Shown: piece by piece, positions 17,030 to 22,497 of the stretch | Layout: each line of letters starts with the position of its first letter | Numbering within the stretch: position 1 is the first letter of the stretch | NCBI GenBank assembly: GCA_009937025.1 | Contig: JAACDG010000030.1 | Coordinates: 1-32,692 of the forward strand | Origin: Methanobacteriota archaeon | GTDB lineage: Archaea > Thermoplasmatota > Poseidoniia > Poseidoniales > Poseidoniaceae | Length of the DNA: 32,692 nt | Direction of reading: 5' to 3' | Made by a program: the position numbers and the translations under genes | The notes under the pieces: generated by a model | The model's database searches: none | What the model was told of the DNA's origin: nothing | What the model saw: the letters and a program-made list of their open reading frames with translations, nothing else

Positions 17030-19834
17030 ATGGCGAGCGCATGGAAGCCGACAATTGTGATTCTTCTCCTATGTGTCGCCGCGATACCCATGCCGATTTC
17101 AGCAGAACAGAGCGGTTCAATACAGGCTTCTCCAAGTAACGTGGCGTTTTCCAACAACACCCTTGAAGCAGGCCAAGATGTTCGAATTTTTCTTCAATTG
17201 TATAACAGTGGAAATTATGCTACCGATGTTGCTTATGCTTTTTACCGGAATGGTATAGGTTCAACCAAGTTAATTGAATCTTCAATCGTGGATATTGATA
17301 CCGATTCGATGGTGGTTGTTTCTGCAGTTTGGGAAGGGCTTGTAGAAGGCGACCATGAAGTGCACATCACCTTTGAGCACCCCCGGGGTTCGGGTAATGA
17401 GGCTCAATTTTATGTAGAATTTTCTGTAGCAGGTCTTCCGAATCTGAAAGTAACGGAAACTCATATCTCGCCTTCATCGGGATTCTTTGCAGGCGACACA
17501 ATCACTCTATCATCATTGGTTCGTAACCTCGGCAGCGAGCCTGCAGTTGCGAGTACTCTCCACATCGACCTCCCCGGCTCAACCGATTTAGAAATCCCAA
17601 CTCCTCCACTTGCGGCGGGTTCAAGTGAATGGGTCAATACCACTTTCACGGCTCCTGAAAGTGGCCCTCATACCTTGAGGGTCACTCCAGATTACGAAAA
17701 TGCAGTGCATGAATCTTCAGAATCAAATAAAATGGTAGAAGTTCAATTTGTCGTCGATACTCGAATGGATATCTATCACATAGGGGACTTAACCGTTAGC
17801 ATCGAAGAAGATGCTCTCGAAGGGCCTTGGGTTGTTTCAGGTAAACTGGGCCGCTCCAATGGTACGGGCGTCTCAGAAGTCCCACTTTGGCTTCAGGTCA
17901 CATTACCATCTGGTGGCTTGATTACCACTGCTCCTTTCATGGTGAACCTCATTGGGACTGGTTTTGCACAGACTGATTGGAGCCATGTTCTCACCGCCAC
18001 ACAACTAAGCGCCTTGCCGGCAGGAATTCATACCTTGAGTGCAAAAATTGACCCTTTTGGAACCGGTTCATTCATTCAAGAAACTACTTCCAATGATGTC
18101 ATCTCAACCACACTCTTAAAATCTGAAATTCCAGATGTGGTTGTCGATTCCAATGCAATAGCATCATCCCCTTCAGTCAATTCAGGCGATTCTGTTTTAT
18201 GGAATGTAAGTATGTTCAACGCTGGGGACGTACGGATCTCTGGAAAGGTGCATTATCTCTGGGAAGGTGTCGAAGCAACATCGGACACAATCTACATCGA
18301 TTCTAAAAAGAGTTATACATGGACGGTTGAATTGATAACTGCAATCGGTGCTCATAATGCTACTTTTGATTCTCAATGGGTGGCATCTGCAAACAGTTGG
18401 GATTCAAACCCCACCAACAGTGTAGCAACGGGGATGGTTTTGGTCGAAGCAGAATTGCGTTTGGCTTTTGCTTTATCAACACTCGAAGTTTTGGATTCAG
18501 AAGGCTCTTCTGTTGTTTTGCCAATGACGCAAGGAGAAAGCTATTCGCTTCAAGTTGATTTGACAAGCGATGCTACAGGTTCAGCATCCTATAATTGCTT
18601 AGACGGCAGTGATACAATCCTGTCAACAATGGACGTTGAAGTGGTCAACCTTGGCGATAAAGTCACTCTCGACTGTGAATTTACTGCTACAGCCCCTTCA
18701 ACAGTTATCAAGTTGGTTCCTTTAGATTCAACGATTTCAAGGTCGGAAACCCGAACCTTTTCGACAATAATGAGTGAACAAGACCTTGAAGAGTTGAACT
18801 CCAATTCAGATATGGGTACCTTTACACTCATCGGATTAGGTGCCTTAGCGTTGATTGGAATTTTAGCCATCTCCATCTTCCTCTCCCGTGAAACAGAAGA
18901 AGAAATCGAACGCGATATTTTCGAATATTGCCCTTCATGCGATGGAGAATTAGAAGGCGATGAAGACCGTTGTCCTTGGTGTTCGTTCAATCTCAACAAA
19001 GCAAGAAAGCAGTTCCATGATTGCAATGAATGTGGCGAATCAATACCGGATTTACTTGACAATTGTGTCTACTGCGGTGCAGATCAAGATGTATCGTCAT
19101 ATTTCGAACAACGGGAACGCAAAGAGAAAGTGGAAAAAACAGTTATTGCCCTTCCTGAAGAAATTGACGAAGATACTATTGTAGCCGGAACTGAGGATTT
19201 TGCTCAAGCAGTACAAGAGTTTGGTTTCGATGAGGAACAACTCGAAGAGGAATGGGATGAAAACATTTTGAGTGCTGAAGCAGAAGTTGAAGCAGCCTAT
19301 GACCGTAGAAACGCAGAGGAAATCCTCCAAGAAGACATGACTGAAGAGGAACTCGAAGCGTACCAAAACACCGTTACTACGACACTCAAGAACATGACCG
19401 AACTTGGCAATGCAAGTAACGACATTGATGCCATTTTGGCTTCGAAAGGCGAGATTATTGCTCATAAAGACGACGGAAAAGACCTTTCTGCGAGTGATGC
19501 GGATATCCGTGGGCGATTGTTCGAAATCACTGGTGAAGATGGAATAATGCCTGGCGACAAAGTACATGTCGGCATGCAATTGACGGATTCCGCTTTCGCA
19601 GGGAATGAAGTTTCTGAAACCACCTCAGACTTCACAGTTTTGGATGATGACAAACCGATTGCCATTATCGACGAGTTAACGCCTCAAGCAGCAAAACCTG
19701 CGCGTCGAAGAGGTGCTCGACGTAAGGCAGCGGAAGAGAAACAAGAATCCGATGTCGCTGAATGCGGTGCATGCGGTGCAGACCTACCTGTTGAAGCCAC
19801 AGAATGTGGGACCTGTGGAGCAAAGTTTGAGTAA
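17030..19834 (+). CDS. CARDB-type surface protein with cytoplasmic zinc ribbons
   Basis: A 934-residue membrane protein of unknown function. It has a signal peptide (1-25, PTIVILLLCVAAIPMPISA), then about four CARDB or related beta-sandwich units (about 30-480; for example GDTITLSSLVRNLGSEPAVA, ending ENAVHESSESNKMVEV). One membrane helix follows at about 595-620 (IGLGALALIGILAISIFL), so the rest is predicted to be cytoplasmic. Inside are two Cys4 zinc ribbons (CPSC/CPWC near 633 and 647; CNEC/CVYC near 664 and 679), a long acidic helical stretch, a basic segment (ARRRGARRK) and a last ribbon (CGAC/CGTC near 913 and 926). The layout suggests a surface sensor or anchor coupled to cytoplasmic partners, which is inference. 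Confidence 0.85.
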   Translation: MASAWKPTIVILLLCVAAIPMPISAEQSGSIQASPSNVAFSNNTLEAGQDVRIFLQLYNSGNYATDVAYAFYRNGIGSTKLIESSIVDIDTDSMVVVSAVWEGLVEGDHEVHITFEHPRGSGNEAQFYVEFSVAGLPNLKVTETHISPSSGFFAGDTITLSSLVRNLGSEPAVASTLHIDLPGSTDLEIPTPPLAAGSSEWVNTTFTAPESGPHTLRVTPDYENAVHESSESNKMVEVQFVVDTRMDIYHIGDLTVSIEEDALEGPWVVSGKLGRSNGTGVSEVPLWLQVTLPSGGLITTAPFMVNLIGTGFAQTDWSHVLTATQLSALPAGIHTLSAKIDPFGTGSFIQETTSNDVISTTLLKSEIPDVVVDSNAIASSPSVNSGDSVLWNVSMFNAGDVRISGKVHYLWEGVEATSDTIYIDSKKSYTWTVELITAIGAHNATFDSQWVASANSWDSNPTNSVATGMVLVEAELRLAFALSTLEVLDSEGSSVVLPMTQGESYSLQVDLTSDATGSASYNCLDGSDTILSTMDVEVVNLGDKVTLDCEFTATAPSTVIKLVPLDSTISRSETRTFSTIMSEQDLEELNSNSDMGTFTLIGLGALALIGILAISIFLSRETEEEIERDIFEYCPSCDGELEGDEDRCPWCSFNLNKARKQFHDCNECGESIPDLLDNCVYCGADQDVSSYFEQRERKEKVEKTVIALPEEIDEDTIVAGTEDFAQAVQEFGFDEEQLEEEWDENILSAEAEVEAAYDRRNAEEILQEDMTEEELEAYQNTVTTTLKNMTELGNASNDIDAILASKGEIIAHKDDGKDLSASDADIRGRLFEITGEDGIMPGDKVHVGMQLTDSAFAGNEVSETTSDFTVLDDDKPIAIIDELTPQAAKPARRRGARRKAAEEKQESDVAECGACGADLPVEATECGTCGAKFE

Positions 19835-19981
19835 TGTCCGTCGGCTTTCATAGGGCTCGTCATCGCTCTTGCTCGGCAACCACTTCGCGTCATTCGGACA
19901 GTTCACGCTATGGCTCTAAGGTATCAAACCCTTGTATCGTCCTGCATTGGATTCATATGTGGGGCAAACTTAGCCCGACCG

Positions 19982-20551
19982 ATGAAGAAGAGTTGGATTC
20001 TGCCAATTATGATGGTGATGATTTTCCTTCTGAGTAGTTCATCTGGATGTTTAGGACTTTTGCAATCTCGAGAAGTAATGGAGAATTTACGAGGTCTCCC
20101 CGAAACCAAATCGGAATCGGTCAAATATACGCATGAACACGTGGTCACCAGCCTCATCGACCCAGAGGTACATGAAAACACCACCACTTTTGAAGTCGAT
20201 GAATCGGTCTCAGAGATTGTAATCTGGCGAAAAGTAGAGATAACTGGTTCTGACGTCATTGAAGATGTCTTCGGTGGATGCTTAGAGAACTACTCACGTT
20301 ATGTTCGCGCCGACCTTTGGGCACCGAATACTGGCCCAGGAGATTCACCGGCTTGGTCGTTGGATGAATGCAAGAATTTACCTGCAAATTCAGTGGAGAT
20401 ACTCCCGCCGTTTGAGGCTGGAACGTGGACATTAGACATCGTTGCACGAGGAGGCGGAACGGCAAATTCCGCTCTGCAAGACCAATTTGAAATCAGTATA
20501 TCTCTCACGCGGACTTGCACTGAGTATCCACTGGAAGATGATTGCATTTGA
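19982..20551 (+). CDS. Predicted lipoprotein of unknown function
   Basis: 189 residues. The N-terminus is a lipoprotein signal: MKKSWILPIMMVMIFLLSSS followed by SGC, where Cys23 is the predicted lipidation site. The mature part is acidic and includes four later Cys (around GGCLENYSRY, LDECKN, TRTCTEYP and DDCI) that could form disulfides outside the cell. It contains a beta-rich domain with FEAGTWTLDIVARGGGTAN near 150, as seen in extracellular binding modules, but no named family is recognised. The start at 19982 is preferred over 19910 because it gives the standard signal. It ends one base from the convergent nuclease gene. Confidence 0.75.
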   Translation: MKKSWILPIMMVMIFLLSSSSGCLGLLQSREVMENLRGLPETKSESVKYTHEHVVTSLIDPEVHENTTTFEVDESVSEIVIWRKVEITGSDVIEDVFGGCLENYSRYVRADLWAPNTGPGDSPAWSLDECKNLPANSVEILPPFEAGTWTLDIVARGGGTANSALQDQFEISISLTRTCTEYPLEDDCI

Positions 20552-20552
20552 T

Positions 20553-21767
20553 TCAGACTAACGAATCATTACATGCGTAAAGCCGAGAACAATTTCGACA
20601 CTTTCCAGGACGGTCGTGATTTCGTATTGCTCCTCCCTGGACCATCAAACGTTGAACTTCGTTGACAGCATCACGCAATTCTTGCTTTGCAACATCATTC
20701 CATGGGATTTGATGAAGATTTTCTTTACCATAGCGAAGAACTCCATAAGGCGCACTTTTCTTTGTATTTATTTCGACGAGGTGTAAGTAGGCGAGTAACT
20801 GCATTCGGTGGGATGGATGTGGGCGAATGGGGACTTTGCCTGTTTTTAGTTCGACTGGGATAAACTCGCCATCGACGATGACAATTTGGTCAGGGCGTCC
20901 ACGTAGGCCCAACTTCTCATCAACAAGCAGGTTCGATGTAGAATCGTCATCCGAATAGGCAATTTCTGCTTCTGTTTCTATATCGATATCATGTTTAATT
21001 GATTGAAGTTCATTTTCAGATAACAACACTTTTTGCAGTTGCCAAGAGGCGGCAAGTGTCCAAGCCATGGCTGTAATGAAAAGAATAAACGTCGCTTGAT
21101 TTCGGTCTTTTGCCCATACCAAAGCAATTGCATGTAATCCTAAAACAATCGAACCAAACAGCAAACTGGCTTCGATTCGCCCTGCTTCAAACCACCCACC
21201 TATGAATCCCTTCGGCTCCCAAAAATAGGCGAAGTCTTCGCTTGAAGCCAAGAACATTGTTTTTTGGCGAGGAATCGTTTCATTGATACCAATCCATGAC
21301 CTCCATGGGACGGAGATTGCAATAAATCCAACCAACAGTGTTGTGAAACTCCACAAAGCGAGATACCGAGCCATGTCCATGGGTGTGATGACTTCATCGA
21401 TATAATTGAAAGCGAGAGCATCAATGGTCAATGCAATAATGACCGAAAACCACCATGTCCAAATGGTGACAGAACGTCGCTTTTGAGCTTGAATTTCCTG
21501 AAAATCTTTCATTTTTTCATGAATTTTTGCATGCCTTTTGATACCGGCAACGATGGCTTCACCTTGGCCAGAATTCCCTTGCCGAGACAAAGACCAAGAC
21601 AAAGGGCAATATTCGTGGCGTTCTAAATCGCTTGCACTTACTGGAAGCGCAATGCCATCGGCATCACGCCAAGTCTTGTCATCGGAAAGAGTGGCGCTCA
21701 GTAGTTCTGTTTGTTCAATATTACCATCCAAACCATCCCCCCCACAGACCTCACAGAAAGGCTTCAT
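20553..21767 (-). CDS. Cas4-like PD-(D/E)XK nuclease with four inserted membrane helices
   Basis: A 404-residue protein with the hallmarks of Cas4/RecB-type nucleases. An Fe-S cluster set of one plus three Cys: Cys54 (HEYCPLSW), Cys390, Cys393 and Cys399 (CRNCSRLYAC). Nuclease motifs: a His in GIKRHAKIHE (His79 or His83), Asp293 (GLRGRPDQ), Glu306-x-Lys308 (PVELKTGK) and QLLAY (323-327). Between the His and the Asp motif sit four hydrophobic helices (about 102-122, 134-156, 200-220, 224-243), so the nuclease appears tethered to the membrane. CEVCGG at the N-terminus adds an extra Cys pair. No cas gene or CRISPR array is present in the window; the role is unknown. Confidence 0.85.
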   Translation of the reverse strand: MKPFCEVCGGDGLDGNIEQTELLSATLSDDKTWRDADGIALPVSASDLERHEYCPLSWSLSRQGNSGQGEAIVAGIKRHAKIHEKMKDFQEIQAQKRRSVTIWTWWFSVIIALTIDALAFNYIDEVITPMDMARYLALWSFTTLLVGFIAISVPWRSWIGINETIPRQKTMFLASSEDFAYFWEPKGFIGGWFEAGRIEASLLFGSIVLGLHAIALVWAKDRNQATFILFITAMAWTLAASWQLQKVLLSENELQSIKHDIDIETEAEIAYSDDDSTSNLLVDEKLGLRGRPDQIVIVDGEFIPVELKTGKVPIRPHPSHRMQLLAYLHLVEINTKKSAPYGVLRYGKENLHQIPWNDVAKQELRDAVNEVQRLMVQGGAIRNHDRPGKCRNCSRLYACNDSLV

Positions 21768-21888: not shown

Positions 21889-22497
21889 ATGTCCGAGGAA
21901 ACGAGCCTACTCTTGCCCTTTGAATCCTATGAAGAGAATGCTGTAAATATCGGTACTCAACAAAAGAGTGCAGATATGGCACGATTCATTGAACGGGTTC
22001 GCGAAGACGGATTATATTTGCTTGATGTCAACATGACTGACTCACGAGTTCGTTCGATTGCAGAATTCCTCAACAAATATGACCCATCCCGCATCATGGT
22101 CGTCTCTGCTCGTCAATATGGGCAACGCCCTGCCCGCCTCTTTTCTGAAGCAATTGGCGCCAATGCTGCTGTAGGCCGCTTTATTCCAGGCTCCCTTACC
22201 AATCCTGTGCTCCGTTCCTATGTCGAACCTGATGTCCTGTTTGTCACCGACCCTGCTGCTGACCAACAAGCACTTCGTGAAGCAGTCAACTCTGGTCTGC
22301 CGATTGTTGGCATCGTTGATGCTAACAACAATCTTCGCAACGTCGATATCGCTCTTCCAGCGAACAACAAAGGTCGCCGTTCACTTGCTTTGATTTACTG
22401 GCTTCTCGCTCGTGAAGTTCTCAAGGCTCGAGGAAAAATGACCGATGAAGATTGGGCAGCTTCCCAAGACTTGGAAGAATGGCAATCCACCTTCTGA
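21889..22497 (+). CDS. rpsB: Small-subunit ribosomal protein uS2
   Basis: Ribosomal protein S2, 202 residues, the normal archaeal length. Family stretches are HIGTQ-like NIGTQQKSADMARFIERVR, DGLYLLDVNMTDSRVRSIAEF, FIPGSLTNPVLRSYVEPDVL, DPAADQQALREAVNSGLPIV and GIVDANNNLRNVDIALPANN; the last gives the conserved cluster before the KGRRSLALIYW helix. Archaeal uS2 is often found with rpoN, rpl13, rps9 and enolase; here it stands alone between a nuclease and an FkbM methyltransferase. A TATA-like box lies upstream and a hairpin terminator downstream, so it is probably a single-gene transcript. Confidence 0.97.
   Translation: MSEETSLLLPFESYEENAVNIGTQQKSADMARFIERVREDGLYLLDVNMTDSRVRSIAEFLNKYDPSRIMVVSARQYGQRPARLFSEAIGANAAVGRFIPGSLTNPVLRSYVEPDVLFVTDPAADQQALREAVNSGLPIVGIVDANNNLRNVDIALPANNKGRRSLALIYWLLAREVLKARGKMTDEDWAASQDLEEWQSTF

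Follow-up and report, generated by a model that had tools for sequence, protein, structure and literature searches.

A Cas4-Like Nuclease Gene Interrupted by Membrane Helices

The window (the whole stretch of 32,692 nucleotides that was analyzed, from a marine archaeon) carries at 20553..21767, on the minus strand, a gene with an ATG start whose 404-residue product is recognized by profiles as a Cas4-like nuclease and is predicted to be embedded in the membrane. Two neighbors mark the locus and are not taken as functional parts of it: the divergent rpsB for ribosomal protein S2 (21889..22497, plus strand; Pfam Ribosomal_S2) and a convergent gene for a conserved predicted lipoprotein with no Pfam match (19910..20551, plus strand). 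The same conserved block includes, at 17030-19834 on the plus strand, a gene for a 934-residue CARDB-domain protein that also matches a double zinc ribbon weakly, under the cut-off.

The nuclease sequence comes in two halves. The N-terminal half (residues 43-101; 21465..21641, minus strand) contains SASDLER..YC, whose cysteine is C54 (Cys1), and the histidines H79 and H83. The C-terminal half (residues 271-404; 20556..20957, minus strand) contains GRPD (D293), E306-x-K308, Q323-xxx-Y327 and a CxxCx5C motif formed by C390, C393 and C399. Aligning 83 orthologues shows H79, H83, D293, E306, K308, Q323 and Y327 to be invariant. Each of the four cysteines is present in 82 of the 83, where the departures are an ambiguous residue in one case and a broken or truncated reading in the other. 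At the ExK motif the window protein reads ELK, against EQK in 82 of the 83 orthologues.

Profile searches agree with these motifs. The C-terminal half matches Pfam PDDEXK_1 (PF12705) with an E of 1.2e-10 and 42.2 bits (curated cut-off 22) and Cas_Cas4 (PF01930) with an E of 5.4e-9 and 36.8 bits (curated cut-off 22.7), and since both scores exceed their curated cut-offs we discount a chance resemblance to Cas4. The match to NCBIfam cas4 (TIGR00372; E 6.2e-17) scores 62 bits, just below the cut-off of 65, so that the equivalog threshold is not reached; among six other family proteins with a C-terminal half, four score above 65 (66.3 to 77.6) and two below (60.1 and 62.9). A profile search of the PDB gave Cas4 matches to 4r5q (E 1.2e-9), 8d3l (E 3.3e-7) and 4ic1 (E 1.1e-5). 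The gene is the sole PF01930 match in its own genome, which is 82.9% complete. With Pfam scores above cut-off, the D, ExK and QxxxY motifs with an upstream His, and one plus three cysteines, the identity of the product as a Cas4-like PD-(D/E)XK nuclease is well supported, and the Cas4-type motif set proposed in the sequence-only reading is borne out by the 83 orthologues and by the Pfam and NCBIfam profiles.

Hydropathy places four hydrophobic segments, at residues 102-120, 135-153, 200-218 and 226-244, all between H83 and D293. The corresponding membrane helices, all encoded on the minus strand, are helix 1 (about residues 102-121; 21405..21464), which is a helix in both structural models described below; helix 2 (about residues 134-153; 21309..21368), preceded by a first loop almost free of Lys and Arg; helix 3 (about residues 199-218; 21114..21173), which starts a hairpin matching the two-helix form of relatives; and helix 4 (about residues 225-245; 21033..21095), which is also covered by the hairpin profile. 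As four segments are likewise found by hydropathy in 81 of the 83 orthologues, the earlier claim of four helices inserted between the His and Asp motifs stands. Lys/Arg residues average 0.04 in the first loop (12 residues counted) and 3.7 in the 15 residues preceding helix 1. The near lack of positive charge in the loop would place it outside; both nuclease halves are then predicted to be cytoplasmic by the positive-inside count. In two loci of the Poseidoniaceae genus g20 (L225 and L226) an extra segment of ~100 residues lies in this first, predicted-outside loop.

A Family With Variable Helix Number

A PF01930 search of the 389 surveyed genomes of the phylum, which we take to be Thermoplasmatota, returned many half-profile matches in over-long frames with the same protein plan. 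A profile built from 18 such family proteins (profile A2, threshold E 1e-5) finds relatives in 251 of 389 genomes, a count to which other Cas4-like proteins may have contributed some weak matches (e.g., L307; L numbers are our locus labels, and f2, f6, f16, f27 and f35 are family codes). The same profile finds them in 131 of 203 good genomes and in 110 of 155 genera. The family looks like an old, CRISPR-independent nuclease of the membrane that is present across this phylum.

We then compared 83 family loci picked for diversity, two of which (the split loci L250 and L292) come from one genome. The insertion point is fixed across the family and holds two, four or eight helices arranged as tandem hairpins. 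Four helices are present in 47 loci, two in 11 and eight in seven, while 15 loci are split between two genes and three are borderline; these proportions are not frequencies because the loci were chosen for diversity. Among the borderline entries (scored as three or five helices), one of the three-helix entries (L256) is a wrong extraction and the others lie at the hydropathy cut. The 11 two-helix inserts were used to build a hairpin profile, which gave at least two matches in 41 of 57 longer inserts, compared to 0 of 285 shuffled and 0 of 57 reversed controls. Single matches are weak evidence, as 13 of the 57 reversed inserts also give one; the Poseidoniales examples shown have one match only, to the second hairpin, and the eight-helix insert L291 has no match to the hairpin profile.

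The nuclease residues persist through these changes of architecture. In a tally of 82 loci of all architectures, which leaves out the misextracted L256, the N-terminal module, Cys1, D, K, Y and Cys2-4 are each present in 82, the His in 80 and the Q in 81, while the E is present in 79 and replaced by Asp in the other three. The catalytic residues are therefore kept both in the 83 orthologues and in these 82 loci, and the loss among homologues that the sequence-only reading had named as counting against it is not seen. A tree of the C-terminal halves (107 rows and 137 columns, by a quick method, with L256 included) separates the family from 24 soluble PF01930 proteins by a branch that has no support; it needs 13 architecture changes and leaves the order of the architectures unresolved.

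The Split Two-Gene Form

In 15 of the 83 family loci the protein is encoded by two adjacent genes, each with one nuclease half and one helix, and such pairs occur in families f6, f16, f27 and f35. All 18 loci first seen as a C-terminal half only (16 distinct genes) have an upstream ORF of ~80-105 codons on the same strand that contains Cys1 and terminates in one helix. The downstream ORF has one helix before its nuclease part, from the predicted start in most loci; in five loci checked this helix lies in open frame upstream of the first ATG. At L186 and L189 none of the usual start codons precedes the helix of the C-terminal half, which suggests either an odd start or a frameshift. In the pair at L184 the N-terminal half corresponds to PDDEXK_1 positions 1-50 (E 4.8e-4, 20.6 bits, below the cut-off of 22) and the C-terminal half matches positions 121-247. 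With Cys1 on the first chain and Cys2-4 on the second, the set of four cysteines is divided one plus three between two chains.

Among the 16 distinct pairs the frame offset is -1 in 13, +1 in two and 0 in one, and given the prevalence of -1, some of them may be joined into one protein by programmed frameshifting. At L246 and L248 an ATG immediately follows the upstream stop, which argues for separate chains in those two pairs. Assembly error is rejected as a general cause of the split, given the recurrence of pairs in the four families and the placement of the ATG at L246 and L248.

Predicted Fold of the Interrupted Nuclease

It is important to consider whether the two nuclease halves can close over the helices, a check that the sequence-only reading had called for. 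The first model (41 rows, mean pLDDT 68.0) lacks the core strands, and the leading Foldseek match to it, Cas4 8d3q_J, is not significant. In the second model (72 rows, mean pLDDT 66.2, pTM 0.48) three strands (model residues 246-248, 253-256 and 259-263) are followed by a helix (276-293) and two further strands (299-304 and 308-313), which is the order expected for a PD-(D/E)XK core. The first eight Foldseek rows for this model hold Dna2 (at the top), Cas4, Cas4/Cas1, MGME1 and ACE1; no Foldseek match has an E below 0.001 for either model.

The best re-alignment is to Cas4 8d3l_J (Z 13.7, rmsd 4.6, 170 residues aligned, model range 1-362), followed by Cas4 7mi5_A (Z 13.5, rmsd 4.1, 153 aligned, model range 1-338), and these ranges mean that both nuclease halves take part. 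MGME1 (Z 10.3), LHK-Exo (Z 9.3) and ACE1 9iab (Z 8.7) align less well, on a scale where unrelated coiled coils matching the helices alone reach a Z of about 10. Structure prediction, at low model confidence, thus supports a PD-(D/E)XK core, the halves being predicted to close over the helices into a domain most like Cas4.

A Fixed Locus in Poseidoniales

The close relatives of the gene belong to Candidatus Poseidoniaceae or Poseidoniales. Of 99 near genomes (the window's own and 98 relatives), 67 have the nuclease. They comprise 56 of the 59 genomes in the window's genus, counting its own, and 11 of the 40 in sister family f2; the other 29 f2 genomes lack it. Among 93 Poseidoniales loci, rpsB is the next gene upstream and divergent in 83, and the lipoprotein gene is convergent at +1 downstream in 88. 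When f2 genomes that lack the nuclease were examined, rpsB was found in 7 of 8 and adjoins the lipoprotein gene in 7 of these 7, which indicates a clean absence in place rather than island turnover. As the Poseidoniales neighborhood is wholly syntenic, the neighbors say little about function. One genome has a second, broken copy of the nuclease gene with in-frame stops (L123, G003:C6).

The statement that this is a single gene away from CRISPR holds: no cas gene is among the scanned neighbors, and Cas1 is found in 0 of the 99 genomes, in a search whose controls gave hits. A role in CRISPR adaptation is rejected for the window's own genome and its 98 relatives, Cas1 being absent. The observations support placing the family with the solo-Cas4 proteins, being Cas4-like, outside CRISPR loci and mainly vertically inherited.

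Copies on mobile elements were also sought. Profile A2 found no relative on viral contigs, and with L172 (a family member, not the window protein) as query there was no match in phages. The same query matched six plasmid records, over 34-37% of its length, of which the annotated ones are Cas4, Cas4/Cas1 or Dna2/Cas4-type proteins, and one match (H6) sits in a cas operon. Viral origin or carriage is therefore rejected, as viral contigs and phages gave no match and plasmids only ordinary Cas4-type ones.

Neighboring Genes in Other Families

Among the chosen genes scanned with Pfam, the neighbors in other families, co-directional or not, are of the housekeeping kind, including those for ribosomal L15e, ribonucleotide reductase, arginyl-tRNA synthetase, IF-2B, PurH, PurL, a dCTP deaminase-like protein and ABCE1. 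In f27 the split pair lies directly downstream of SMC and ScpA-like genes in 17 of 17 genomes with the pair (four loci examined and 13 more by tblastn). This linkage is seen only in those four f27 loci among the 83 family loci, whose flanks differ in length. The ScpA-like label rests on gene position and on a weak best match in the PDB (E 0.15), the protein having no Pfam or NCBIfam match. In f27 genomes without the pair the SMC and ScpA-like ORFs are still together in 9 of 9, so the nuclease is dispensable in those genomes.

In 9 of 60 loci (L164, L162, L259, L282 and five more), spread across seven family codes, the gene at -1 belongs to the TPD family (CDIN1-like); Pfam confirmed this in the four that were scanned. 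These loci share wider synteny, and the adjacency may thus be partly due to descent. The TPD family presumably includes a human protein. That human protein is predicted to be a PD-(D/E)XK nuclease, and no activity was found for it (PMC7261414).

Proposed Function and Alternatives

We consider it probable, with moderate confidence, that the product is a solo-Cas4-type nuclease integral to the membrane, closed across its helices and working on the cell's own DNA near the membrane. The N-terminal half, with Cys1 and His, would meet the C-terminal half, with D, ExK, QxxxY and three Cys, on the cytoplasmic side; the four cysteines would presumably hold an Fe-S cluster, and the even number of helices would fasten the nuclease domain at the inner membrane face. 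By analogy with Cas4, Dna2 and MGME1-type nucleases, the activity may be metal-dependent cleavage of DNA ends or flaps. Close to the membrane the enzyme would act in repair or segregation, on the chromosome of the cell itself or on intermediates of replication, rather than in CRISPR adaptation. This processing of own DNA at the membrane is, as a function, our guess; the SMC/ScpA-like link in f27, the TPD neighbor and, in Poseidoniales, the fixed locus lead us to place it first, with defense as the main rival.

A defense or competence role had been suggested for the protein at the outset, and this reading has weak support. Its defense version would make the protein a nuclease posted at the membrane to degrade incoming virus or plasmid DNA, in f27 perhaps together with SMC in the manner of MksG/JetD. 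Its membrane position and Cas4 ancestry are consistent with such a task, as are matches of the C-terminal half to the PADLOC Cas4 and, weakly, DruK models and the SMC and ScpA-like genes upstream in all 17 f27 genomes with the pair; moreover, PMC5704561 suggests that solo-Cas4 proteins may act in defense, and PMC10123090 describes SMC-coupled nuclease defense. However, none of the scanned neighbors is a defense gene, copies on viral contigs, phages and plasmids are lacking in the searches above, and the fixed locus with its clean absence in place does not resemble the shuffling of defense islands, and MksG is a TOPRIM nuclease and not PD-(D/E)XK (PMC10123090). We regard defense as unlikely.

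The two remaining alternatives fare worse. Co-directional neighbors of nucleotide metabolism, namely ribonucleotide reductase (L172), a dCTP deaminase-like gene (L286), PurH (L281) and PurL (L285), could point to a Cas4-derived scaffold, a membrane Fe-S sensor or a protein acting on RNA or free nucleotides in place of a working DNA nuclease, but D, K and Y in 82 of 82 loci and E or D in 82 of 82, across all architectures, make this quite improbable. A part in DNA uptake, trimming or degrading DNA that comes in across the membrane, whether for transformation or to be used as food, would suit the membrane position, and marine heterotrophs could use DNA; in one locus (L256) a type II/IV secretion ATPase is the divergent neighbor. 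Against it, ComEC (PF03772) is found in 0 of the 99 genomes, with hits in 10 of 14 controls, and the positive-inside count places the nuclease on the cytoplasmic side. A competence role of the ComEC type is thus not supported, and we judge an uptake role very improbable.

Returning to the membrane nuclease acting on own DNA, it can be set against several known systems. CRISPR Cas4 (TIGR00372, PF01930) has the same PD-(D/E)XK core with His, D, ExK, QxxxY and one plus three cysteines, but here membrane helices are inserted into or split the domain, Cas1 is found in none of the 99 genomes and the score falls below the TIGR00372 cut-off. Dna2, MGME1 and the lambda/LHK-type exonucleases align with the predicted fold, Dna2 being the top Foldseek row; unlike Dna2, the window protein has no helicase part, and to our knowledge none of these enzymes is a membrane protein. 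ACE1, the Argonaute-associated Cas4 family protein, is similar in predicted fold (9iab, Z 8.7), but no Argonaute is among the Pfam matches of the window neighbors. MksG (JetD) of MksBEFG/Wadjet shares linkage of a nuclease gene to an SMC complex (PMC10123090), but is TOPRIM whereas the nuclease here is PD-(D/E)XK, in the membrane and linked to SMC in f27 only. The archaeal solo-Cas4 proteins of PMC5704561 are likewise Cas4-like, outside CRISPR loci and mainly vertically inherited, but a membrane or split form is not described in the available text of that paper, in which "transmembrane" is never used and "membrane" appears once, in another sense. We found no description of a membrane-inserted or split Cas4 in the open-license literature searched.

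Solo-Cas4 proteins are common in archaea and, as PMC5704561 states, experimental work on them was lacking at the time of that publication. Their job becomes testable through a membrane form that is widespread, keeps the catalytic residues and has a natural two-subunit version. The linkage to SMC and ScpA-like genes offers a concrete hypothesis on chromosome processing at the archaeal membrane, and if the own-chromosome reading with SMC-ScpA is true it would give Cas4 a CRISPR-free job. We also entertain a broader proposal, possible although doubtful, of an ancient class of membrane nucleases in this archaeal phylum. In it the Cas4 fold would be put together from the membrane-anchored ends of one or two chains, an Fe-S cluster shared by two chains would license DNA cutting only at the membrane, and at least one lineage would have the SMC-ScpA condensin as a partner on the chromosome.

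Where two genes encode the halves, the putative cluster would be completed by cysteines of two chains, and the nuclease would then assemble only when its subunits meet within the membrane. If the shared cluster is real, this would be a new way of making a nuclease depend on subunit assembly. One genome (G196) holds both forms together, a split pair at L179 and the one-gene four-helix form at L283.
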